33,650 bases of DNA from a virus. A program made the position numbers and the translations under genes. Position 1 is the stretch's first letter, and each line of letters starts with the position of its first letter. The DNA lies in the IMG/VR virus record IMGVR_UViG_3300017788_003032, positions 1 to 33,650 of that record; one strand, 5' to 3'. A model generated the notes under the pieces. The model was not told where the DNA came from, made no database searches, and saw only the letters and a list, made by a program, of their open reading frames with translations. Below are positions 5,360-19,474 of this stretch, piece after piece.

Positions 5360-5551
5360 TTAACTATTATCAAAGTTAGCTTTGTTCAATTCTTTTATGG
5401 TAATTTGATTATGTTTCCACATTTTCCATGTTTCAAAATCTTTTAAAGATTCAAGAGTTTTTTCATGTACTAAAATAAAACCTTCGGGAGCGACTCCACC
5501 GAATTTACGAACTTCACCTTCCTCTTCCAATATTTTTTGTAAATCAATCAT
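5360..5551 (-). CDS. Small protein of unknown function (63 aa)
   Basis: This protein begins MIDLQKILEEEGEVRKF and contains VAPEGFILVHEKTLESLKDF, followed by a helical tail rich in Lys and Asn. No family is recognised. It overlaps the end of the upstream HAD gene by 8 nt and precedes the DUF2061 gene by 6 nt. It is therefore embedded in a compact leftward operon, which supports it being real. Confidence 0.65.
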   Translation of the reverse strand: MIDLQKILEEEGEVRKFGGVAPEGFILVHEKTLESLKDFETWKMWKHNQITIKELNKANFDNS

Positions 5552-6152
5552 CTAATAAGTACTTAATTATTTTATCTTTTATTCCACTTTGTTTGATTCC
5601 TTCCCACATTCTCGGAGTCCATACAAAGTTCTGTAGTCCCCAATCTCTATCGAATGGACCATAAGAACTATTTGCGACATGAATACCCATGTGGAGGTCA
5701 TCAACTGCAACCCAATGTGTAATTTCGGGATGTGACTTTAGATAATCTTTAATTTCGAAGTGTCTTTCTTGTTCACGACCATCGGTTCTATTCCAATCAA
5801 AATCAGATGGGACACGACCTTCATCTAACCAATTTTTATAATGAAACACTTCGGTAAATCCGATTGGTTTTTTAATAATACCTTGTGATGTGTAGTATTC
5901 ACCTAATTCCTCTAAATTGGCATGTAATCTCCAATCAGAACTCACAACGATTTCAGCTCCTGTGGTTTCTAAAATCTTATTAAGGATTTTGATTGCTTTT
6001 GGGTCAAAATTATCAAAACGATATTCAACAGGAATTGATTTTATATCCATAGACAATTTTCTCCCACCCCACTTATCTTGTTTCTTGTGGCGGGAACCCC
6101 AATTGCTACTTAGGCAAATTACTCCATCATTATCTAAAAATATAACTTTCAT
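5544..6152 (-). CDS. HAD-superfamily phosphatase-like protein (RNA-repair HAD type)
   Basis: The 202-aa protein starts MKVIFLDNDGVICLSS, with HAD motif I (D7-N-D-G). IVVSSDWR supplies the motif II Ser, and WVAVDDLHMG supplies acidic motif IV. A short FLDxDGV...VVSSxWR...DD architecture without a large cap resembles the HAD domains of Swiss-army-knife RNA repair proteins and phage 3'-phosphatase modules. It probably removes phosphate from a nucleotide or nucleic-acid end; substrate unknown. The frame stays open to 6353, but an ATGA overlap with the upstream gene (stop 6149-6151) and the motif I position fix the start at 6152. It could help repair tRNAs cleaved by host defences. Confidence 0.75.
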   Translation of the reverse strand: MKVIFLDNDGVICLSSNWGSRHKKQDKWGGRKLSMDIKSIPVEYRFDNFDPKAIKILNKILETTGAEIVVSSDWRLHANLEELGEYYTSQGIIKKPIGFTEVFHYKNWLDEGRVPSDFDWNRTDGREQERHFEIKDYLKSHPEITHWVAVDDLHMGIHVANSSYGPFDRDWGLQNFVWTPRMWEGIKQSGIKDKIIKYLLDD

Positions 6153-6496
6153 TTCCAAAATAATTGTATTGCAACGATTGTGAATGCGAGAACTAAACAG
6201 GTGACAGTTTTCAAGTTCATGTGTTCTTGAAAAAGTGTTGAGGATAATATTGTGAACACAACTACCCCTAATGCGAATCCAACCAATCTGCTTGGCCAAA
6301 TTTGACCTCCGAATCCTTGCACATAAAGATTCACGGACTTGATGTACAACCAACTAATTGGAATCCCTGATAGTAAAAGTAACCAAAGGTATTTTTCTGA
6401 CCAACCATATTTGATTGAACCCTGTAATTGCATGAAAGACCCAACTTGACCTAAAATCATAAACAGGGTGGCGAGAAGTATTTTGGCTATGTCCAT
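6149..6496 (-). CDS. Four-helix membrane protein, SMR/DMT-like size
   Basis: This 115-aa protein has four hydrophobic helices at about 3-22, 35-53, 66-86 and 94-113. A WLYIKS segment follows helix 2, and LVGFALGVVVFTILSSTLFQE lies in helix 3. Length and topology match small multidrug resistance / EamA-half type transporters, but the SMR active-site Glu in helix 1 is not evident (FMILGQVGSF instead). It may be an EamA-like fragment or an unrelated phage membrane protein. It is first in the leftward operon, overlapping the HAD gene by 4 nt. A TATCTTTA element lies about 5 nt before its ATG. Confidence 0.65.
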   Translation of the reverse strand: MDIAKILLATLFMILGQVGSFMQLQGSIKYGWSEKYLWLLLLSGIPISWLYIKSVNLYVQGFGGQIWPSRLVGFALGVVVFTILSSTLFQEHMNLKTVTCLVLAFTIVAIQLFWK

Positions 6497-6508: not shown

Positions 6509-6540
6509 AAAAAAATCCCCCGAATATTCGAGGGATTTTT
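6509..6540 (-). terminator. Intrinsic terminator after the Oar-like receptor gene
   Basis: A 12-bp hairpin with one mismatch (AAATCCCCCGAA / TTCGAGGGATTT) lies just past the receptor stop on the minus strand. It is followed there by a T run (A run at 6506-6515 on the plus strand). Confidence 0.85.
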
Positions 6541-6545
6541 AATTT

Positions 6546-9500
6546 TTAATTGAAGTTATATCTCAAACCAAATTGCATTCTCCATACATCGGAAACACCT
6601 GCGGTTGGTCGATATGTGGTCTTAACCAAGTCGGTTCCAAAGTTTCTCATTCTGTGTTGTGCTCTTCCATCAGCACTTGCCGCTCCACCTTGAGTGGATG
6701 AAGGGATTACAAGAGGTTGAGTTGTGTTGAATGTTTGTCCGATACCCCACTCAGAATTCAACAAGTTACCCAAGTTAAGAACATCGACTCTGAATTCCAA
6801 AGCGTTTTTCTTTCCTTTGATGTTTGTGAATAGTTGTTGTGCGATAGACATATCTGCTCTGTAAACCATCGGCATGATTACCGCACCTCTTTTAGCGTAT
6901 TTACCTCTGTTTGCACTTAGGTACTTATCTTGCTGAATGTATGCTTCCCATGCGTCAGCTTGTTCAGCTGCGGTGAATGTCTTTCCACTTGCGGTGTACT
7001 GTTGGAAGTTCATTTGGTCTTTGGTCTTTGGAATAAAGATAAGGTCATTTGAAGTTCCACCATCATTGTTTAAGTCACCACCGTAAACATAACTTGCGTT
7101 TCCAAGTGTTCTACCTTCCCAAAATACTGAAACTGATGTGTTTCCGAATTTGAATAGGTCTTTGGTATAACTTGCAGTTGCGAATACTCTGTGACCCATG
7201 AAGTTGGATGAGAATCCAAGACCAGGGATGTTAGGGTCTTGAGAAATTGGATTTCCGAACCAAGTACCTGCTGCAATTGAACCTGGATCTACAGTGTTTT
7301 TGGTTTCACCATAACTGTAAGCTGCTTTCACGAACAATCCATTATCAAATGGTCTTTCCAAAGTGAATGAACCTACCCAAGAATAACCGATTGCTTGATT
7401 CGAAAGAGTCACAGCATTTGGGATTTTGGAGTTGATTCTATTACTTGTAAGCCATCTGTATCTTGTATCAGGTCCTGTAAAATTGGACTGTGGTACAGGA
7501 AGGTTTGCGTTATAATAAGCCATACCGTTTACATCTGAGCTGTAGATGAATTCTGCAGTTGCGATGATTCCCAAAGGTAATTTTTGGTCGATTGCAACGT
7601 TGGTTCTCCATACTTGCGGGAACTTGAAATTCGGTTCAGTGAGAGCCAATTCATAAGATGATGCAGGATTTCCTGTAACTGTTGTTGGTTTGTAAGTATT
7701 CGGGTCAGGATTGAATGGTCTTGTTGTTGTGTTGTCCAACTGAGCAAAACCTGTCAAAATACCGTTGTTTCCAACTTGGTTCGAAATCCATACATAAGCT
7801 GGTCGACCTGTGAATACACCTGTTCCACCTCTAACTTGTGTTTTTTGGTTATTAAATACATCCAAGTTGAAACCCAATCTTGGTGACCACAAAATGTTTG
7901 CGTCAGGAAGTTTGTCCGTTCTGAAGTTCAAGAATGCGCCAGCGGCATTTCTGAAGTAGAAATTTTCAACTTCTGTATTTCTCAATGCAGTTGCACCGAA
8001 GTGAGGAACGTCGAATCTCAAACCAACTGTAAATTTCAAGTTTTGTAATACTTGAATTTCATCTTGAGCATAAAGTCCGAAGTAATCAACTTCGAGTGGT
8101 TGGATTGGTTTCTCGGAACCTGGGATGTTATTCCATCTTACTTGGAATCTTCTCAAGTTTACACCTGATGGAGTTTTGTTTCCGTTTGCCAAGAAGTTGT
8201 TCGCGTCTTTGTAGAAATCGTCCAAAGAGTTATACACATAAACTGACTGAGAACCAGGGAAGAATACGTTTTCAGATTGGTATTTCTCATATGTTCCACC
8301 TGCAGTGATTGTGTGATTTCCAGCAAAGATTTGAAGGTTGTTTTGAACTTGGAATGTTTTGTATCTAAGTTCATTGTTTGGTGTGAAAGGTTCAAAACCA
8401 AATGAAGTATAAGTTGCTCCATTGTTTAGAATATCAACCATTGGGAAGAATTCTCCTTTGTAACCACGACTCTCATCTTGGTAAGTGTAACCAATAATCA
8501 AATTGTTCGATACTTTGCTTCCAAGCCTTGAGTTCAATTCACCAACTACAGAACGGATGTTTTCCATAATACTGTAGTTTGAGTTTTGGAAATTCAATGC
8601 TTCGGGTCTGAAATTTCTATTACCAAAACCTAATGAAGAAGACCCTGACATCAAAACGTCAGTTGAAGAATCCAAATGATTGTATCTCAAACTTAGTTTA
8701 TTGTTGTCATTGATATTGTAATCAAATTTAATCAATCCTTTGGTTGATAAAGTTTGATTATCATAATCTTGGTAAGGTCCTGTCTCATAACCGAACTTGT
8801 CTTTCAAGAAACCACTCAAGGTGTTCAAATCTGATGCAAGAACTCTTGTAACATTTCCTGTGATTGGTTCTCCACCATTGTTTGCTCTCCAAGTTGTGCC
8901 TGGTCTTGATTCTTCATCATCTTCGAATGAAGCAAAGAAGAATAGTTTGTCCTTCACAATTGGACCACCAACTCTGAAACCTTGTTGTTTGTAAGTGAAA
9001 TCTCCAGGATTGAATGTGTTTACACCCGCTTTGGTTCCAACATTGTTGTTGTTTCTCCAAAAGTAGTAAGCTGATCCGATTATTTCGTTTGTACCAGATC
9101 TCGTTACTGTGTTTACACCAGCACCTGTGAAGTTTCCTTGTCTTACGTCATAAGGAGCAACGTTTACTGAAATTTGGTCAATTGCATCCAAAGAAATTGG
9201 AGATACACCTGTTCTACCACCAGGGTTTGAACCTGAACCCAACCCAAATGAGTTGTTAAAGTAAGAACCATCGACTGTGATGTTGTTCAATCTCCCGTCT
9301 TGACCTGCGAAAGATTGTCCATTAGATTGTGGTGTCAACCTTGTAAAGTCGTTGATACTTCTTGAGATTGTTGGAAGTTTTGAAAGATTTTGGTTTGTGA
9401 TTCCTGTTGAAGCACCAGTTCTTTCTGAACTGAATACAGGATTCTTTTCACCAATAACTACAACTTCGTCAATACCCAATGCCTCTTCCTTCAATTCCAC

Positions 9501-9827
9501 GTTGAGATTCTTGGTTACACCCAAACTCAAAATAATGTCTGAAGTTTCTTGAGCCGAGTATCCGATGAAGGAAACCAATAATGTATAAGGACCACCGACC
9601 CTCATGTTTGGAATAAAATAACGTCCCTCGTTATTTGTAACAGTAAAATACTTTGTGCCAGATGGGATGTGGACTGACGCAACAGTAGCACCTGGTAAAG
9701 GTTCTCCTGTGTTACTAACGACTCTACCTGATAAACCTGAAGTTGTTACACCTTGAGAAAACGTCAGTCCGAAAGACATCAGTAAAAACAAGAATGATAA
9801 AACCCCTTGTAATAGATTTTTTTTCAT
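6546..9827 (-). CDS. Oar-like TonB-dependent receptor
   Basis: This is a complete 1093-aa outer-membrane receptor. It has a signal peptide (residues 1-25, ending TFSQG) and a carboxypeptidase-regulatory-like beta sandwich (about 30-115). A TonB-box-like DEVVVIGE lies at 120-127, followed by a plug domain (about 130-250) and a 22-strand-type barrel ending in the aromatic RYNFN. Plug sequences such as SRSINDFTRLTPQ and NNITVDGSYFNNSFG are characteristic of Oar proteins of Myxococcota and Bacteroidota. Such proteins move large substrates, including peptides, through the outer membrane using TonB energy. No frameshift or truncation is seen. Base composition is close to the flanking phage genes, though the protein is slightly more GC-rich in coding style. 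A receptor of this class is not a standard phage gene; roles in nutrient uptake, receptor replacement or superinfection exclusion are all conjecture. Confidence 0.93.
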   Translation of the reverse strand: MKKNLLQGVLSFLFLLMSFGLTFSQGVTTSGLSGRVVSNTGEPLPGATVASVHIPSGTKYFTVTNNEGRYFIPNMRVGGPYTLLVSFIGYSAQETSDIILSLGVTKNLNVELKEEALGIDEVVVIGEKNPVFSSERTGASTGITNQNLSKLPTISRSINDFTRLTPQSNGQSFAGQDGRLNNITVDGSYFNNSFGLGSGSNPGGRTGVSPISLDAIDQISVNVAPYDVRQGNFTGAGVNTVTRSGTNEIIGSAYYFWRNNNNVGTKAGVNTFNPGDFTYKQQGFRVGGPIVKDKLFFFASFEDDEESRPGTTWRANNGGEPITGNVTRVLASDLNTLSGFLKDKFGYETGPYQDYDNQTLSTKGLIKFDYNINDNNKLSLRYNHLDSSTDVLMSGSSSLGFGNRNFRPEALNFQNSNYSIMENIRSVVGELNSRLGSKVSNNLIIGYTYQDESRGYKGEFFPMVDILNNGATYTSFGFEPFTPNNELRYKTFQVQNNLQIFAGNHTITAGGTYEKYQSENVFFPGSQSVYVYNSLDDFYKDANNFLANGNKTPSGVNLRRFQVRWNNIPGSEKPIQPLEVDYFGLYAQDEIQVLQNLKFTVGLRFDVPHFGATALRNTEVENFYFRNAAGAFLNFRTDKLPDANILWSPRLGFNLDVFNNQKTQVRGGTGVFTGRPAYVWISNQVGNNGILTGFAQLDNTTTRPFNPDPNTYKPTTVTGNPASSYELALTEPNFKFPQVWRTNVAIDQKLPLGIIATAEFIYSSDVNGMAYYNANLPVPQSNFTGPDTRYRWLTSNRINSKIPNAVTLSNQAIGYSWVGSFTLERPFDNGLFVKAAYSYGETKNTVDPGSIAAGTWFGNPISQDPNIPGLGFSSNFMGHRVFATASYTKDLFKFGNTSVSVFWEGRTLGNASYVYGGDLNNDGGTSNDLIFIPKTKDQMNFQQYTASGKTFTAAEQADAWEAYIQQDKYLSANRGKYAKRGAVIMPMVYRADMSIAQQLFTNIKGKKNALEFRVDVLNLGNLLNSEWGIGQTFNTTQPLVIPSSTQGGAASADGRAQHRMRNFGTDLVKTTYRPTAGVSDVWRMQFGLRYNFN

Positions 9828-9865
9828 TGTTTTTGTTTTTTGTTATTTATTTGTTTGTTTATTTA

Positions 9866-9900
9866 TAAAAAAAAATCCCGAGTATATCAATACACGGGAT
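9866..9900 (-). promoter_or_regulatory. Terminator-like hairpin in the 5' leader of the Oar-like gene (candidate attenuator)
   Basis: On the minus strand the stem ATCCCG-(A mismatch)-GTAT / ATAC-(A)-CGGGAT (9875-9900) is followed by nine T residues, then about 40 nt of A-rich leader and the receptor ATG. It has the form of an intrinsic terminator, but sits upstream of the gene. It is therefore either an attenuator or a stop for antisense transcription. The rest of the 9828-10094 gap holds two TATTTAT(A/T) octamers on the plus strand (9844-9851, 9860-9867) and a TAATTTTG at 10034-10041. None of these is a convincing promoter for the divergent receptor. Confidence 0.5.
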
Positions 9901-10094
9901 AGATTTTTCCACTGATAAAATAATAATTTTCCGTAAGTCGACAGTTTCGAGTCATACCCTTATAAGTATAAGTGTTTACTACTTGGAAGTAAATTTTTTG
10001 AATTTTTTTTTTAACAACAACATAATCATTTGATAATTTTGAATTTGAGGTTTCGAAGGTCACTTCTCGTAATTATTGTTGAAAAAATCATATA

Positions 10095-12578
10095 ATGACA
10101 AAATATTTTATTTTTATGTTGCTTTTTCCTTTGAGTGTTTTCTCCCAAGAAAAAGTTAAACTTCAGGGTAAAACCAAATCAACTAGTGAAGAAATATATT
10201 TCGCCCACATAACATTTCAGAATAAAGAGGGACAAGTTTTTACTACAATATCTAATGAAAATGCCCAATATGAAATTGATTTGGTTTCAGGAGAATATCA
10301 GGTAAAAGGAAGTTACATTGGATACAAAGATTTCGTAACGAACATTACTGTAACTTCAGATACAAATATAGATATTATTTTTGAGGCGACCGATACGGAG
10401 TTAAACGAAGTTTTAGTTCGAGGAACTGCACAAAAAGTCACAGATATTTCAGTGATGAAATCCATCAGAAATAATATTGTCGTATCTGATGGACTATCAA
10501 TAGAATTTATAAAGAAGACCCCCGATAGAAATTTGGGTGACGCATTGAAACGAGTAAGTGGTGTCACAATTCAGAATGACAAATTTGTTTTGGTTCGAGG
10601 ACTTGCCGATAGATATAATTCGGCATTATTGAATCAAACACCATTACCCTCCACAGAACCCGACAGACGAGCATTCTCGTTTGACATTATCCCAACTTCT
10701 TTGATTGATAATATTATGGTTTCCAAATCATTTTCAGCAAACCAACCTGGTGATTGGAGTGGAGGACTGGTTCAAGTATCGACAAAGGAGGTGTCCGACA
10801 ATTTTTTGGACGTAAGCTTCGGGACGGGAATCGGATCTGTCTCGACTTTCCAAGATTTCAAACTGGTGGAATCGACCCCATTTCCATTAACCTTTCCTTC
10901 CACCTACAAATTCCGAATGAGTGGTAATGGTGATAAAAGATTATTTACAAAACTAATAGGAAACCCAACAGAGAATAGTTTCCAATCCATACCAAACTTG
11001 AATGGAGGACTTTCATTTGGGTATGTGAAAAACAAATTCAATTCATTACTCAGTTCAACAATTAGAAACACAAATACCCTCAACATCATTGAGAGAAAGG
11101 ATTATCAATCTTCAACAGAACTGGCATATGATTATAATGATAGATTATATACACAGAGATTTTCCACAAATGGATTGTTGAACTTAACTTATTTGGGAAA
11201 AAACAAATATAGTTGGAAGACATTGGCAAACTTCCAAAAAGAAAGTTCTTACCTAACCCGAGAAGGTCAAAACTTTGACAATGTTCAAGATGTGTTGAGT
11301 AATGCGTCAAACCATATCAATAACGTGGTAATCAACTCACAGGTTGATGGTAATATTGAAACCTTTGATTTCAATTTCGGATATAACTACATCTTCAGAG
11401 AACAACCTGATTATAGAATTAACCCAATCACCAAATCATTAGGTGTGAATGAACCATTCTCAACCGCATGGAGAGACACCTACAGATTTTGGAGCATCAT
11501 GGATGAAAACTCATTCAACGGAAATATCAAGAAAGATTTGGGTAAATTCAAAGTGGGTGGTGGTTATTTGAAAAAAATAAGAGGATTCAACGCAAGAGTT
11601 TTCAGATATCAGACAACGGATTTATTGGATGAAATAACCAACAATACCGATAGATACACCGCCGACTTTGATTTGGGAAATCTTTACACGATGTATGAAA
11701 ACGAAATTGGAAAATGGAAAATCAATACAGGTGTAAGAGGTGAATATAACTTGTTTGATGTTGAAACCGCAGATTTCAGTGGTCAAAAGGTAAATGTGGA
11801 TAGAACATATTTGGACATTCTTCCATCATTGAACCTTTCTTATAACTTGGAGAAAACAAAATATAGATTCTCTTTGAGTAAGACCTTGGCAAGACCAGAG
11901 TTCAGAGAAGTTGCAAACTTCGCATATTATGACTTTGTTAGAAACGCACAAATATTAGGAAACTCAAACTTGAAAAAAACCGACGTATACAATGTTGATT
12001 TGAAATACGAGTTATACCCTTCAAACACAGAAAACATTTCCCTTTCATTCTTCGGCAAAAACTTCATAAACCCAATCGAACAAATTGTTGCTGATGGGTC
12101 AGTTCCATCCAACTTACTTTTAACTTATGCAAATCCTGAATCAGCACTTGTATATGGTGTTGAAATGGAAGTTAGAAAAAGAATAAATGGATGGTTTGAT
12201 TTTTACACAAACGCTTCAGTTATGAATTCTGAGGTTGATGTGAATGGTGTAAAAAGACAATTACAAGGACAATCAAACTATGTTGTTAATTCAGGTGTGA
12301 ACATCAACAAGAAAAATAATACACTTAATCTAACCTACAATAGAATTGGAGAAAGAATTTCTGCTGTCGGATTTCAGGGCTACCCCGACATATTCGAAAA
12401 TAGTAGAGATGTTTTGGATATTACTTTCTTACATAAACTTCCAAAGGGAGAGTTGAAGTTGGCAATATCAGACATTTTTGCACAACCATCAATAAACTAT
12501 CAAAGAATTTCAAACCGTAATTTAATAAACACAAATAACGAAACAATAGTTTCATTAACCTTAAATCTAAATTTATGA
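10095..12578 (+). CDS. TonB-dependent receptor (827 aa) with carboxypeptidase-like N domain
   Basis: A signal peptide (residues 1-17, ending VFSQE) is followed by a carboxypeptidase-regulatory-like domain (about 20-100, with YIGYKDFV). LNEVLVRG at 103-110 is TonB-box-like. The plug (about 130-235) contains RNLGDALKRVSGVTIQND and VLVRGLADRYNSALLNQTPLP, a recognisable plug signature. The beta barrel ends in SLTLNLNL. The sequence is intact and of normal length for siderophore/nutrient-type receptors. It is translationally coupled (ATGA, 12575) to a lipoprotein gene, the common Bacteroidota layout of receptor plus surface partner, although that partner is not SusD-like. The substrate is unknown. 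It is transcribed away from the Oar-like gene across a 267-bp gap. Confidence 0.93.
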   Translation: MTKYFIFMLLFPLSVFSQEKVKLQGKTKSTSEEIYFAHITFQNKEGQVFTTISNENAQYEIDLVSGEYQVKGSYIGYKDFVTNITVTSDTNIDIIFEATDTELNEVLVRGTAQKVTDISVMKSIRNNIVVSDGLSIEFIKKTPDRNLGDALKRVSGVTIQNDKFVLVRGLADRYNSALLNQTPLPSTEPDRRAFSFDIIPTSLIDNIMVSKSFSANQPGDWSGGLVQVSTKEVSDNFLDVSFGTGIGSVSTFQDFKLVESTPFPLTFPSTYKFRMSGNGDKRLFTKLIGNPTENSFQSIPNLNGGLSFGYVKNKFNSLLSSTIRNTNTLNIIERKDYQSSTELAYDYNDRLYTQRFSTNGLLNLTYLGKNKYSWKTLANFQKESSYLTREGQNFDNVQDVLSNASNHINNVVINSQVDGNIETFDFNFGYNYIFREQPDYRINPITKSLGVNEPFSTAWRDTYRFWSIMDENSFNGNIKKDLGKFKVGGGYLKKIRGFNARVFRYQTTDLLDEITNNTDRYTADFDLGNLYTMYENEIGKWKINTGVRGEYNLFDVETADFSGQKVNVDRTYLDILPSLNLSYNLEKTKYRFSLSKTLARPEFREVANFAYYDFVRNAQILGNSNLKKTDVYNVDLKYELYPSNTENISLSFFGKNFINPIEQIVADGSVPSNLLLTYANPESALVYGVEMEVRKRINGWFDFYTNASVMNSEVDVNGVKRQLQGQSNYVVNSGVNINKKNNTLNLTYNRIGERISAVGFQGYPDIFENSRDVLDITFLHKLPKGELKLAISDIFAQPSINYQRISNRNLINTNNETIVSLTLNLNL

Positions 12579-13771
12579 AAAAACTATTAACAATTCTAAT
12601 CGCATTAGGACTCTTCAGTTGTGATAGAGACTTAGGTGGAGGAGAAGGGCCAATCAATGTTCCATCCACTACAACACTTACAGGAAACATAAATACAACA
12701 ACAACTTTGACATCTGACAAAGTTTGGACATTGAAAGGATATGTTTATGTAACCGATGGAGCAAAACTTATTATCCAACCTGGAACTACCATAGTTTCTG
12801 ACGTGGCTGAGAAGGGGGCATTATGTATTGAAAGAGGTTCCCAAATTATTGCGGAAGGAACCCAATCCAAACCTATCGTATTTACGTCAGGGAGACCTGA
12901 GGGACAACGATCTCCTGGTGATTGGGGTGGTATAGTAATTTTAGGTAGAGCGAAGACAAACCGTTCCTCTGAACCTACAATCGAAGGTGGAATCGGAAGA
13001 CCTTATGGTGGAACAAATGATTCTGACAATAGTGGTGTAATGAGATATGTTAGAATTGAATACGCAGGAATCGCAGCGATGCCGAATTCTGAAATTAACG
13101 CACTTACTTTAGGTGGTGTAGGAAACGGAACAATTCTTGAAAACATTCAAACAATATATGCAAACGATGACGCATTCGAATTCTTCGGAGGAACTGTGAA
13201 CGGAAAAAACCTTTACGCATACGCAACCGCAGATGATGATTTCGACTTTGATTTCGGTTACACAGGAATGATTACAAACGGAGTGGCAAAAAGAGACCCC
13301 CAATTTGTTGATAGTGGTGACGCTGGAAATGGTGTAGAATGTGATAATGATGGAACTGGGTCATCGGCACAACCATATACACACCCAAAACTTTACAATA
13401 TGATTTTGGTTGGTCCGAATGTATCTACAGCACTTGCGAACCACAACTTAGGATTGAGATTCAGAAGATCGACTCAGTTCACGATGAAGAACAGTGTAGT
13501 TTGGGGATGGATGAAAGGTGGATTGAGTTTGGAAAGTAATGAAACTGCACAATTCGTAAAAGATGGTGTATCTGTCTTTGAAAACAATTCTGTTGGAACA
13601 TTCAATCCAACTCTGAATTTCATTAGTAGAGCAACAACAATTCTAACAAGTGAACAATTGAAAACTTTGGCTCTTTCTAAAAGTAATAAAGAAATAGATG
13701 TGGTGATTCCCGAACTGGCGATGCCGACTTGGGTCAACGGATGGACAAGATTTCCGTCAAAAGGAAACTAA
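12575..13771 (+). CDS. Receptor-partner lipoprotein with beta-helix-like repeats
   Basis: The 398-aa precursor has a lipoprotein signal peptide (lipobox LFSC, Cys16) followed by acidic CDRDLGGGEG, which could act as a surface-export signal. A region of repeating short strands follows: GAKLIIQPGTTIV, GSQIIAEGTQSKPIVFTSG, GDWGGIVILGRA, ENIQTIYANDDAFEFFGG. Such repeats suggest a right-handed parallel beta helix. The middle is rich in Asp (ADDDFDFDFGYTG), possibly binding calcium. Similar proteins are encoded beside TonB-dependent receptors in Bacteroidota genomes, and its 4-nt overlap with the receptor gene argues that they act together at the cell surface. The ligand is unknown. It is followed directly by a strong terminator. 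Confidence 0.82.
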   Translation: MKKLLTILIALGLFSCDRDLGGGEGPINVPSTTTLTGNINTTTTLTSDKVWTLKGYVYVTDGAKLIIQPGTTIVSDVAEKGALCIERGSQIIAEGTQSKPIVFTSGRPEGQRSPGDWGGIVILGRAKTNRSSEPTIEGGIGRPYGGTNDSDNSGVMRYVRIEYAGIAAMPNSEINALTLGGVGNGTILENIQTIYANDDAFEFFGGTVNGKNLYAYATADDDFDFDFGYTGMITNGVAKRDPQFVDSGDAGNGVECDNDGTGSSAQPYTHPKLYNMILVGPNVSTALANHNLGLRFRRSTQFTMKNSVVWGWMKGGLSLESNETAQFVKDGVSVFENNSVGTFNPTLNFISRATTILTSEQLKTLALSKSNKEIDVVIPELAMPTWVNGWTRFPSKGN

Positions 13772-13774
13772 AAA

Positions 13775-13802
13775 AAAAGGGAGTCATTGACTCCCTTTTT
13801 TA
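13775..13802. terminator. Bidirectional intrinsic terminator
   Basis: The hairpin AAAGGGAGTC / GACTCCCTTT with loop ATT (13776-13798) has a T run on the right and an A run on the left. It can therefore stop both the receptor-lipoprotein mRNA (plus) and the tmRNA transcript (minus, 3' end 13810). Confidence 0.9.
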
Positions 13803-13809
13803 TTGATTG

Positions 13810-14221
13810 TGGAGGTGCAGGTTACCGCCACCTGGTCTTACCCGCCATATCAAAAATGGACTACACGTTTAGGACAAGGTTTGTCATACCTTCCGAAATA
13901 GATAGTTCCTATTTTGACATTGTCACCAACAACTGTGTCGAGTTCACTTTTATTAAGACAGCCCTCTGAACGTGGTCTCTGATACAGTTCGGGTCGTATC
14001 CACCTTGGAGGGCTTCTGTTCCTAGGTTATATGCCCATTCGACCTGACGTTGTATCTACTTCTTAAGCAGTTACAACAGACGCTTCTCTAGTTAAACCTA
14101 AAGCAGACATCTTAGCAAGAGTATTGCCGTTTACTTTCTTCACCATAGATTTAAGTCATAGATGAATTCTGACTACGTGCCCATTGATTATACAAACGTT
14201 AATCAATTCTAGTTCACCCCC
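13810..14221 (-). ncRNA. ssrA: tmRNA (phage-encoded)
   Basis: On the minus strand the 5' end GGGGGTG (14221-14215) pairs with CACCTCC (13817-13811). The third pair is G-U, the alanine identity element of tmRNA, followed by discriminator A13810. The 5' end continues TGAACTAGAATTGAT, matching the tmRNA TGAxxCTxGAxTxGA block. CTAAACGTGTAG (13872-13861) matches the conserved 3' segment CTAAGCATGTAG. Then come GAC and a T arm CAGGT / ACCTG whose loop GGCGGTA lacks the usual TTC. A tag frame from GGC (14128) could encode 21 residues beginning GNTLAKMSALG and ending REASVVTA before TAA (14065-14063). The 412-nt length suits tmRNA. A host-type promoter and a terminator flank it. It would rescue stalled ribosomes and tag their products. 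The resume codon is uncertain. Confidence 0.85.
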
Positions 14222-15329: not shown

Positions 15330-15345
15330 GTTATTTATATCTTTG
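15314..15345 (+). promoter_or_regulatory. Overlapping host-type promoter and TATTTATA box for the peptidase gene
   Basis: TTTG (15314-15317), a 20-nt spacer and TATCTTTG (15338-15345) form a Bacteroidota promoter. Its -7 element overlaps the phage-type box TATTTATA (15332-15339). The ATG at 15350 is 4 nt past the -7 element, so a transcript from it would be leaderless. Confidence 0.6.
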
Positions 15346-17458: not shown

Positions 17459-19474
17459 TTACCGACCTTTCTTGATTACTTTGACTTCTTCATTTTCGAC
17501 TTTAATTACATAGGTTTTACCTGGTATAATTTTGTCGGTCAGAACTTCTTCGGATAATAAGTCTTCGACTTTATCTTGGATTGCTCTCTTGAGAGGTCTC
17601 GCTCCATAGACTTCATCGTAACCAATTTTGGATAGATAATCCAAAAGTGATTCATCATAACTTATCTTGTACTTCATTTCATCAAGACGCTTCATCAACT
17701 TTTTAAGTTCGATGTCAGTGATTTTTTTGATGTCTTCTTGAGACAAAGAATTGAATACAATAGTATCGTCGATACGATTGATGAACTCAGGAGAAAAGAA
17801 ATTTTTCATCTCTTTCATCAAGATTTCTTTTTTCGCTTCTTCGTTACTGTAGGTGTTATTGGAGAATCCAATACCAGTACCAAAGTCTTGGAGTTTTTTC
17901 ACACCAAGATTTGAGGTAAGAATAATCAAAGTGTTTTTAAAGTTGATTTTTCTACCCAAACTATCTGTGACGTGACCATCATCTAAGATTTGAAGTAATA
18001 CAGTGAATACATCTTTGTGAGCCTTTTCAACCTCATCGAATAAGATTACAGAATAAGGTTTGTTCTTAACCTTTTCGGTAAGAAGACCCCCTTCTTCATA
18101 ACCCACATAACCTGGAGGTGCTCCAACCAATTTAGAAACCGTATGTTTCTCTTGGTACTCGGACATATCTACACGGATAAGAGAATCTTCACTTCCAAAC
18201 ATTTCTTTTGCAAGTTGTTTAACTAAGTGAGTTTTACCAACACCCGTGGGGCCTAAGAAAATGAATGACCCTATTGGACGATTTGGGTCTTTGATTCCAA
18301 GACGATTTCTCTTAATGGACTTCGCAACTTTGATTACAGCTGCATCTTGACCGATTACTGTACCAACAATTTGTTTATCCAAGTTGAGAAGGGCTTTCGA
18401 ATCATCTGTGGACATTTTATTGACAGGAATTTTGGTCATGTTCGAAACAACATCATATACATCCTCCAAACTGATTTTCTGTTTGTCCTTTGACATCTGT
18501 TCTTCAAACTTCTGTTTTTCTTGTTCTAATTTGTCCAACAACTTTTTCTCCTTGTCCCTGAGTTGAGCCGCTTGTTCGTAGTTCTGTTTTTTTACAACAT
18601 CCAATTTTTGTTGTTTTAACTCCGCAGCTTTACGTTTCAACTCTTCAATTGATTCAGGTACTTTCAATTCAGTTTGCATTCTTGCTCCGACCTCGTCCAT
18701 AATGTCAAAAGCTTTGTCGGGAAATTCACGGTCAGTGATGTATCTCTCGGCAAGTTTCACACAGGTTTCAATTACCTCATCCGAATAAACTACTTTGTGA
18801 TATGATTCATACTTATCACGAAGGTTTCTCAGAATTTGAATTGTTTCTGCAACTGAAGATGGTTCCACAATTACTTTTTGGAATCTACGCTCCAATGCTC
18901 CATCTTTTTCGATGTTTTTTCTAAATTCATCCAAAGTTGTCGCACCGATGACTTGGATTTCCCCACGAGACAATGCAGGTTTGAAAATGTTGGAACCGTC
19001 CATTGAACCAGATGAATTTCCTGAACCTACCAAAGTATGAATCTCATCAATGAAAACAATGATGTTTGGATTCGATTGAAGTTCTTCGATAATTACTTTC
19101 ATCCTCTCCTCGAATTGTCCACGGTATTTTGTACCAGCGACAACGGAAGTTAAATCAAGATTAACCAATCTTTTGTCCAACAAGTTTCTTGGACAATCCC
19201 CATTTACAATTTTCATCGCTAAGCCTTCAACGATTGCAGTCTTACCACAACCAGGTTCACCAATGATAATTGGGTTATTCTTTTTTCTTCGGGATAGGAT
19301 TTGAGCAATTCTAAGAATTTCTCTATCTCTTCCGATTACGGGGTCTAACTTTCCCGCTTCAGCAAGTTTATTCAAATCTCTACTGAAATTATCAAGTACA
19401 GGTGTTGAGGTCTCACTTGCAGACTTCTGTTTTTTACTCATCATTTTGTCTTCGTCGTCCATTAGGTCATTCAT
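17459..19474 (-). CDS. ClpC/ClpA-type AAA+ unfoldase lacking the N-domain
   Basis: The 671-aa protein has two intact AAA+ modules. D1 has Walker A GEPGCGKT (72-79) and Walker B IVFIDEIH (139-146). D2 has Walker A GPTGVGKT (408-415) and VILFDE (476-481). The middle region (about 275-330) carries a UVR-like segment (KKQNYEQAAQLRDKEKK), as in ClpC. A GIGF tripeptide loop at about 534-537, where ClpA/ClpC bind ClpP, suggests docking to a host ClpP, as no clpP is in this window. The two Clp_N repeats that normally fill the first 140 residues are missing; 27 polar residues replace them. That would remove normal adaptor binding. It is divergent from a UVR-motif protein gene. Confidence 0.92.
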   Translation of the reverse strand: MNDLMDDEDKMMSKKQKSASETSTPVLDNFSRDLNKLAEAGKLDPVIGRDREILRIAQILSRRKKNNPIIIGEPGCGKTAIVEGLAMKIVNGDCPRNLLDKRLVNLDLTSVVAGTKYRGQFEERMKVIIEELQSNPNIIVFIDEIHTLVGSGNSSGSMDGSNIFKPALSRGEIQVIGATTLDEFRKNIEKDGALERRFQKVIVEPSSVAETIQILRNLRDKYESYHKVVYSDEVIETCVKLAERYITDREFPDKAFDIMDEVGARMQTELKVPESIEELKRKAAELKQQKLDVVKKQNYEQAAQLRDKEKKLLDKLEQEKQKFEEQMSKDKQKISLEDVYDVVSNMTKIPVNKMSTDDSKALLNLDKQIVGTVIGQDAAVIKVAKSIKRNRLGIKDPNRPIGSFIFLGPTGVGKTHLVKQLAKEMFGSEDSLIRVDMSEYQEKHTVSKLVGAPPGYVGYEEGGLLTEKVKNKPYSVILFDEVEKAHKDVFTVLLQILDDGHVTDSLGRKINFKNTLIILTSNLGVKKLQDFGTGIGFSNNTYSNEEAKKEILMKEMKNFFSPEFINRIDDTIVFNSLSQEDIKKITDIELKKLMKRLDEMKYKISYDESLLDYLSKIGYDEVYGARPLKRAIQDKVEDLLSEEVLTDKIIPGKTYVIKVENEEVKVIKKGR

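Follow-up and report, generated by a model that had tools for sequence, protein, structure and literature searches.

A phage-borne TonB-dependent receptor and lipoprotein pair with PHO-box-like promoter repeats as a putative outer-membrane phosphorus importer

Introduction

Why should a phage carry genes for outer-membrane receptors? The question is raised by a 33,650-base stretch of DNA (the window), which is an IMG/VR virus record (IMGVR_UViG_3300017788_003032) and a fragment of a larger phage genome. The contig belongs to a T4-like phage, with genes for a terminase, a T4-type portal and a prohead protease as well as ten tRNAs, and it also encodes an Oar-like TonB-dependent receptor, a second TonB-dependent receptor (TBDR; the window's second one is called TBDR2) and a predicted outer-membrane lipoprotein (Table 1). 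An initial annotation, made from the sequence, proposed three roles for these genes, including nutrient uptake during infection, control of superinfection by receptor replacement, and export of a phage product by the Oar route. The first of these is the best one and can now be specified as phosphorus, based on a phosphate operon of the bacterial genus Aquirufa, promoter repeats, and published expression data from Flavobacterium johnsoniae. TBDR2 and the lipoprotein probably constitute a phage-borne, PhoB-controlled outer-membrane importer for phosphorus compounds, for which we infer PhoB binding, the surface location, the ligand and the benefit to the phage. The host is presumably a member of Bacteroidota, probably of the order Cytophagales.

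A Receptor and Lipoprotein Pair Carried by Phages

TBDR2 has the plug and beta-barrel organization of TonB-dependent receptors, with Pfam matches to Plug (PF07715, 2.5e-8) and OMP_b-brl_3 (PF14905, 2e-25), and a match to CarbopepD_reg_2 (PF13715) of 31.5 bits that lies just below the curated cut-off of 32.2. Its AlphaFold2 (AF2) model, with a predicted local distance difference test (pLDDT) score of 87.3, shows an N-terminal domain and a complete barrel with its plug, and yielded 235 matches in the Protein Data Bank (PDB) at E <= 0.001, led by TBDRs, with PhuR as the best (E 8e-24). An EVLV segment resembling a TonB box lies near residue 105, inside a flexible stretch (residues 100-113), and TonB-energised transport is predicted. 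The gene of the lipoprotein overlaps that of TBDR2 by ATGA, and its product, whose lipobox reads LFSC followed by DRDLGGG, had no family match in Pfam, PHROGs or NCBIfam and no match in a PDB sequence search. The AF2 model of the lipoprotein (pLDDT 92.5, from a 61-sequence alignment) aligned with the beta-helices of AlgG and AlgE4 at a VIA-align Z of about 24, and Foldseek returned no significant match (best PDB E 0.0095). According to the model and the VIA-align comparison, the lipoprotein is predicted to be a right-handed parallel beta-helix. Nearly all viral lipoproteins have x-K/R/T-E/D/N-L-G after the Cys, a pattern which we take to resemble the published surface-export signals of Bacteroidota lipoproteins. 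A SusC/SusD pair was considered and rejected, because the partner is an all-beta right-handed helix without a Pfam SusD match, and SusD is a helical protein of tetratricopeptide repeats.

All three open reading frames were confirmed at the positions and lengths first assigned to them, and signal sequences with Q after the likely cleavage site, the TonB-box-like segments EVLV and DEVVV, the barrel ends and the lipobox are readable in the sequence. In pairs including the window, the ratio of nonsynonymous to synonymous substitution rates (dN/dS) was 0.05-0.10 for TBDR2, 0.05-0.07 for the lipoprotein and 0.06-0.08 for the Oar-like gene, and it ranged from 0.03 to 0.23 over pairs of TBDR2 and of the lipoprotein. 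The three genes are intact and under purifying selection, and since dN/dS is low for each of them, none is a relic, as had been proposed. They are also truly phage-borne, because they stand on a contig with phage hallmarks and the same junctions occur in independent contigs, namely L002/L013 (28 kb, with the Oar-like gene) and L012 (142 kb), L014 and L015 (326 kb), all three without it.

In the viral collection, 102 candidate stretches with TBDR2 relatives were confirmed and 79 loci were kept; TBDR2 is therefore present on at least 79 viral loci, at 62-97% identity. The database check suggested by the initial annotation thus places homologues on phage contigs, and its premise that phages normally use such receptors rather than encode them needs correction, as a megaphage precedent (PMC9723777) also indicates. 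Two faecal 'Bacteriophage sp.' fragments (MT837092 and MT838075), which carry both genes, were left out as they could be bacterial. The four-base ATGA overlap was found in 67 of 67 readable viral junctions, and a gene overlap of any kind in 3 of 80 bacterial pairs, the bacterial starts being first-ATG guesses. Further window genes are also present at about 20 viral loci. Among 23 cassette contigs tested (in L004 and L009 the gene tested for was the Oar-like one, not TBDR2), a T4-type portal was found in 13 and a Gp23 capsid protein in a further one; baseplate genes adjoin the cassette in L025, and the remaining contigs, without a tested hallmark, may be fragments. Matches to phrog_2 in two contigs, considered as terminase, overlap PhoH genes and were not counted.

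The portals of the cassette phages form two groups, which are mutually only about 33% identical. Two phages from different portal groups (L060 and L073) have TBDRs that are 85% identical, whereas two others with 94% identical portals (L012 and L021) have TBDRs that are only 75% identical, and this mismatch indicates that the cassette moves between phages. Strict co-descent of cassette and phage was rejected, as portal and TBDR distances correlate weakly (r = 0.20).

PHO-Box-like Promoter Repeats

The promoters of the bacterial pairs contain tandem 11-bp direct repeats with the unit GGTAACATTGC, and a period of 11 bp is the spacing of PhoB-binding PHO boxes. A matrix for the repeat was learned from 69 bacterial promoters, with Aquirufa excluded from the training, and was applied to 51 non-redundant phage promoters, with 572 upstream regions taken from elsewhere on the same contigs as controls. 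Nearly half of the viral promoters (49%), and that of the window as well, scored above the 99th percentile of the controls. Because AT-rich intergenic DNA could have inflated this test, dinucleotide shuffles and control periods (9, 10, 12, 13 and 14) were added. Against the shuffles, period 11 gave z = 18.8 for two units and 17.0 for three, compared with at most 3.2 for the other periods, and repeats were individually significant in 37 of the 51 promoters. For the three-unit array of the window, none of 1000 shuffles was as good. Moreover, a -7-like pattern occurs in 29 of the 51 viral promoters versus 13% of shuffles. We regard the 11-bp arrays of the phage TBDR2 promoters as PHO-box-like and as candidate PhoB sites.

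Bacterial Relatives and the Aquirufa Operon

The TBDR2-lipoprotein family is a general TBDR-lipoprotein pair of Bacteroidota, and 218 of 295 Bacteroidia genomes contain relatives of the lipoprotein. Among the matches listed, the nearest bacterial relative is found in Aquirufa (about 60% identity for the TBDR and 69-70% for the lipoprotein), where the gene order is TBDR, lipoprotein, an alkaline-phosphatase-superfamily enzyme (PF01676/PF01663) and a PHO4 phosphate transporter (PF01384, 1e-87). A strict pattern (TAACA three times with an 11-bp period and at most one mismatch) occurs at two places only in the 2.5-Mb Aquirufa genome, which are the operon of the pair and another pair encoding PHO4 (1e-84) and a phosphate-selective porin (PF07396, 1e-32). 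In a 20-locus sample, genes for PhoX, HisKA, response-regulator and Ppx/GppA proteins were also seen near the bacterial pair.

A close copy is present in full in two and in part in one of 38 genomes of the Aquirufa genus group. In the careful tree, phage TBDR2 falls into a single clade with the Aquirufa copies, and 1.74 substitutions per site separate this clade from other bacterial relatives; within it, Aquirufa groups with L049, L057 and L060 (bootstrap 99). A tree uniting all phage copies to the exclusion of Aquirufa was rejected in the approximately unbiased test (p-AU 0.0225, a somewhat optimistic value because the group was named after the first tree was seen). Transfer from phage to Aquirufa would be the simplest reading of this branching, and two captures from an Aquirufa-like donor are a possible alternative. 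On balance, we lean towards a scenario in which a PhoB-run outer-membrane phosphorus importer belongs to the gene pool of large Bacteroidota phages, moves between unrelated lineages, gained its ATGA junction there, and was handed back to at least one genus, Aquirufa, in which it now heads a phosphate operon.

Proposed Role in Phosphorus Supply

In F. johnsoniae, the receptor Fjoh_0545 (Pfam 07715, 13715 and 14905) and the FII lipoprotein Fjoh_0546 (IPR011050, pectin-lyase/beta-helix superfamily) are encoded in the phoBR operon and are strongly induced upon phosphate depletion, for which the fold-change column gives 8.0 and 9.9, respectively, read here as log2 (PMC8115612). Caulobacter ElpS, to which the same study relates the lipoproteins of this family (PMC8115612), is a lipoprotein of the cell surface that is produced during phosphate starvation (PMC2996285). 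As well, cyanophage genes are known to come under host PhoBR control (PMC10976474).

We propose that, when a phosphate-starved Bacteroidota host is infected, host PhoB would bind the 11-bp repeats upstream of TBDR2, and that TBDR2 and the lipoprotein would be translated in a coupled manner from a single transcript. On the outer surface, the beta-helix lipoprotein may capture or process a phosphorus-containing ligand, which would be passed through the TonB-powered barrel of TBDR2 to host phosphatases, and in some phages to phage ones too, and phosphate would thereby be kept available for phage DNA synthesis. In L035, L050 and L054, which represent three lineages, the lipoprotein gene is followed by those for a glycosyltransferase and then a PlcP-like metallophosphoesterase, and the esterase of L054 shares 44% identity with a protein whose gene lies near the PHO4-porin pair in Aquirufa. 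These two enzymes may recall phosphorus-saving lipid remodelling. In addition, a gene for a secreted non-specific nuclease lies near the cassette in six loci. PhoH, present in 14 of 22 contigs, was considered as support and rejected, as it is too common in phages and bacteria.

Several points weigh against a role in phosphorus supply. The bacterial pairs mostly stand beside genes of mixed kinds, and the phosphate context therefore comes mainly from Aquirufa, the promoter repeats and the published expression data. No other phosphate gene adjoins the pair in the window, where the PlcP-like esterase and the nuclease are absent. The reversed control pattern also gives about one chance match per genome, 14 of the 51 viral promoters have no significant repeat, and the best two-unit score of the window is not significant by itself (p = 0.07). 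Finally, the TBDR fold does not tell the substrate, and TBDRs carry many. It is conceivable, though unlikely, that TBDR2 and the lipoprotein import another scarce nutrient, such as an iron chelate, a vitamin or an oligosaccharide, as most TBDR-lipoprotein pairs of Bacteroidota do: the generic fold of TBDR2 finds heme and siderophore receptors as its top PDB matches and also matches XusA, the partner of the surface lipoprotein XusB, and alginate epimerases and pectate lyases have folds similar to that of the lipoprotein.

The Oar-like Receptor and Other Explanations

The initial annotation treated the three genes as one cassette. This is rejected, because L012, L014 and L015 lack the Oar-like gene while keeping the neighbours of the window locus on both sides, and because the gene has a different origin, in Cytophagales. 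The gene, with matches to CarboxypepD_reg (PF13620) and OMP_b-brl_4 (PF25183, 5e-45), is placed in L002/L013 exactly as in the window, and its nearest bacterial relatives, with identities of 76% and 67%, are encoded in two genomes of Cytophagales, the order to which Aquirufa belongs; the chromosomal neighbourhood around these relatives is common to both genomes. The Oar-like gene in L010, L059, L074 and L077 comes from another bacterial branch, and phages therefore took up such genes from Cytophagales at least twice, relatively recently. The Oar-like receptor is a separate, optional acquisition of more recent origin than the TBDR2 pair. Approximately 40 nt upstream of the Oar start, at about 9868-9900 on the minus strand, stands a terminator-like hairpin (ATCCCG...CGGGATTTTTTTTT) that includes a T run. 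Comparable hairpins precede the gene in L002, L010, L059 and L074, and the one in the window may serve as an attenuator or end a different transcript.

That the Oar-like receptor exports a phage or host protein along the Oar route, which was also proposed, seems improbable. The CarboxypepD_reg and OMP_b-brl_4 architecture and the repeated capture (at least twice) by phages favour it, and the likeness to the Myxococcus-type Oar exporter is one of domain architecture only. However, no cargo gene was identified, Oar-like proteins are widespread in Bacteroidota, and there are no PHO-box repeats upstream of the Oar-like gene in the window (a weak two-unit match was seen at the Oar promoter in L002/L013). 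In F. johnsoniae, Fjoh_3841, a TonB-dependent transporter (TBDT) annotated only with PF13620, is low-phosphate-induced (PMC8115612), and uptake is thus at least as likely as export for the Oar-like receptor.

We give still less credence to superinfection control or receptor replacement, in which phage outer-membrane proteins would hide phage receptors, compete with them or restore them. No evidence for either role, or for Oar-route export, emerged from the analysis. TBDRs commonly serve phages as receptors, and cassette variants pass from phage to phage, which would suit such a role; purifying selection is strong, though, without a sign of diversification, the partner lipoprotein is conserved, the promoter repeats are of a nutrient-responsive kind, the homologue belongs to a phosphate operon, and no phage-specific change was identified. 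Misassembly or accidentally packaged host DNA has next to no probability and is already refuted for the family, since, although the nearest relatives beyond the viral clade are bacterial, identical junctions recur in independent assemblies at a position syntenic across phages, a T4-type portal or Gp23 capsid protein is found on 14 of the 23 cassette contigs tested, and the viral clade lies 1.7 substitutions per site away from other bacterial copies.

Comparison with Known Systems

The phage pair shows the architecture of the low-Pi-induced TBDT-lipoprotein (PUS-type) systems, a TBDR followed by a lipoprotein of beta-helix fold, with PF13715 just under the cut-off. It is most like Fjoh_0545/0546 (PUSIV, PMC8115612), to which it is likened by domain annotation, as both have the TBDR domains PF07715, PF13715 and PF14905, an adjacent outer-membrane lipoprotein of the beta-helix superfamily, and a PhoB link, which is putative in the phage. 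Unlike Fjoh_0545/0546, the pair is phage-borne, forms its own clade and is ATGA-coupled in all readable viral pairs; its lipoprotein has about 400 aa, versus about 450 aa in most bacterial pairs examined. The pair would also count among the phosphorus-acquisition auxiliary metabolic genes of phages, as it lies in a phage genome, is intact and selected, and has a predicted role in phosphorus supply.

A putative TonB-dependent receptor (SusC) was reported in the megaphages Mar_Mega_1 and LR745206 and read as serving carbohydrate uptake (PMC9723777). In LR745206 (L220, 6695-10532), we found a relative of the beta-helix-type lipoprotein directly before the TBDR. This TBDR is 27% identical to TBDR2, has the reverse order (lipoprotein-TBDR) and falls outside the TBDR2 viral clade. 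We regard the LR745206 genes as an independent acquisition of a pair of this type. Cyanophage genes such as pstS resemble the phage pair as phosphorus-acquisition genes under host PhoBR (PMC10976474), but pstS encodes a periplasmic phosphate-binding protein in cyanobacteria, whereas the TBDR2 pair would be an outer-membrane TonB-dependent importer in Bacteroidota. An annotated TonB-dependent receptor is also present in the genome of the pelagiphage Polarivirus skadi (PMC10504331), where, unlike TBDR2, it is surrounded by tail and capsid genes and has been interpreted as adsorption-related. A survey of soil-phage phosphorus genes does not mention TonB (PMC10987575). The phosphate assignment, the promoter and the phage-to-phage circulation were not found in the literature searched, with subscription papers and preprints outside its scope, and appear to be new; phage TBDRs as such were known before from megaphages and a pelagiphage.

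Other Features of the Locus

Table 1. Features of the receptor and lipoprotein locus (positions in the window).
Feature	Position	Strand	Remarks
Oar-like TonB-dependent receptor	6546-9827	-	1093 aa; CarboxypepD_reg and OMP_b-brl_4 (Pfam); an optional, separate insertion
TBDR2, TonB-dependent receptor	10095-12578	+	827 aa; CarbopepD_reg_2-like domain, plug and beta-barrel; Pfam, AF2 model and PDB matches
Predicted outer-membrane lipoprotein, right-handed parallel beta-helix	12575-13771	+	398 aa; lipobox, AF2 model
Putative PHO box, three 11-bp direct repeats TTTAACAACAA CATAATCATTT GATAATTTTGA	10010-10042	+	Matrix trained on bacterial promoters
-7-like box TAATTATTG, 3' of the putative PHO box	10070-10078	+	Resembles the Bacteroidota -7 box TAnnTTTG
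Bidirectional terminator-like hairpin ending the TBDR2-lipoprotein unit	13773-13801	+	13-pair stem, T run; consensus match only
Terminator-like hairpin 3' of the Oar-like gene	6511-6540	-	Consensus match only

Downstream of the Oar-like gene, a HAD domain of the Swiss Army Knife RNA repair type (PF18143) is encoded at 5544-6353 on the minus strand. Between the lipoprotein gene and the next gene lies a putative phage transfer-messenger RNA (tmRNA) at 13807-14221 on the minus strand, with a full-length covariance match (38.3 bits, E 9e-14) that is under the gathering score; in the relatives L021, L054 and L043, tmRNAs were called by ARAGORN, with 21-aa tags such as GNTFAKMATLGLTREASVVAA. The octamer TATTTATA (other strand TATAAATA) has eight copies in the window on both strands, versus 2.3 expected, and stands at 15332, 20099, 21429 and 28342 from a few to about 30 nt before gene starts of the plus strand. 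A ClpA/ClpB-like AAA+ protein encoded at 17459-19474 on the minus strand is conserved in the phage lineage of the window, and is 57% identical to proteins of the megaphages LR745206 and LR756502. In addition, several uncharacterised families of secreted-looking proteins, one of them with an LCCL domain, are each encoded no more than 6 kb from the cassette at 11-14 phage loci (for example, L042 5177-7837, L086 15397-16998 and L090 17549-18298).

Significance

To our knowledge, most phosphorus genes of phages encode enzymes, regulators, or transport proteins of the inner membrane or periplasm. The phages described here would act at the outer membrane, which is the first barrier for larger phosphorus compounds in Bacteroidota. 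Some Bacteroidota are without PstSABC (PMC8115612). The compact phage versions make the poorly understood family of TBDTs with FI/FII lipoproteins experimentally approachable, and the promoter repeats supply a candidate PHO-box motif for Bacteroidota. It is predicted that phosphorus limitation in freshwater shapes these phages, and the pair suggests that large phages of freshwater Bacteroidota may keep the infected cell supplied with phosphorus for the copying of their DNA.

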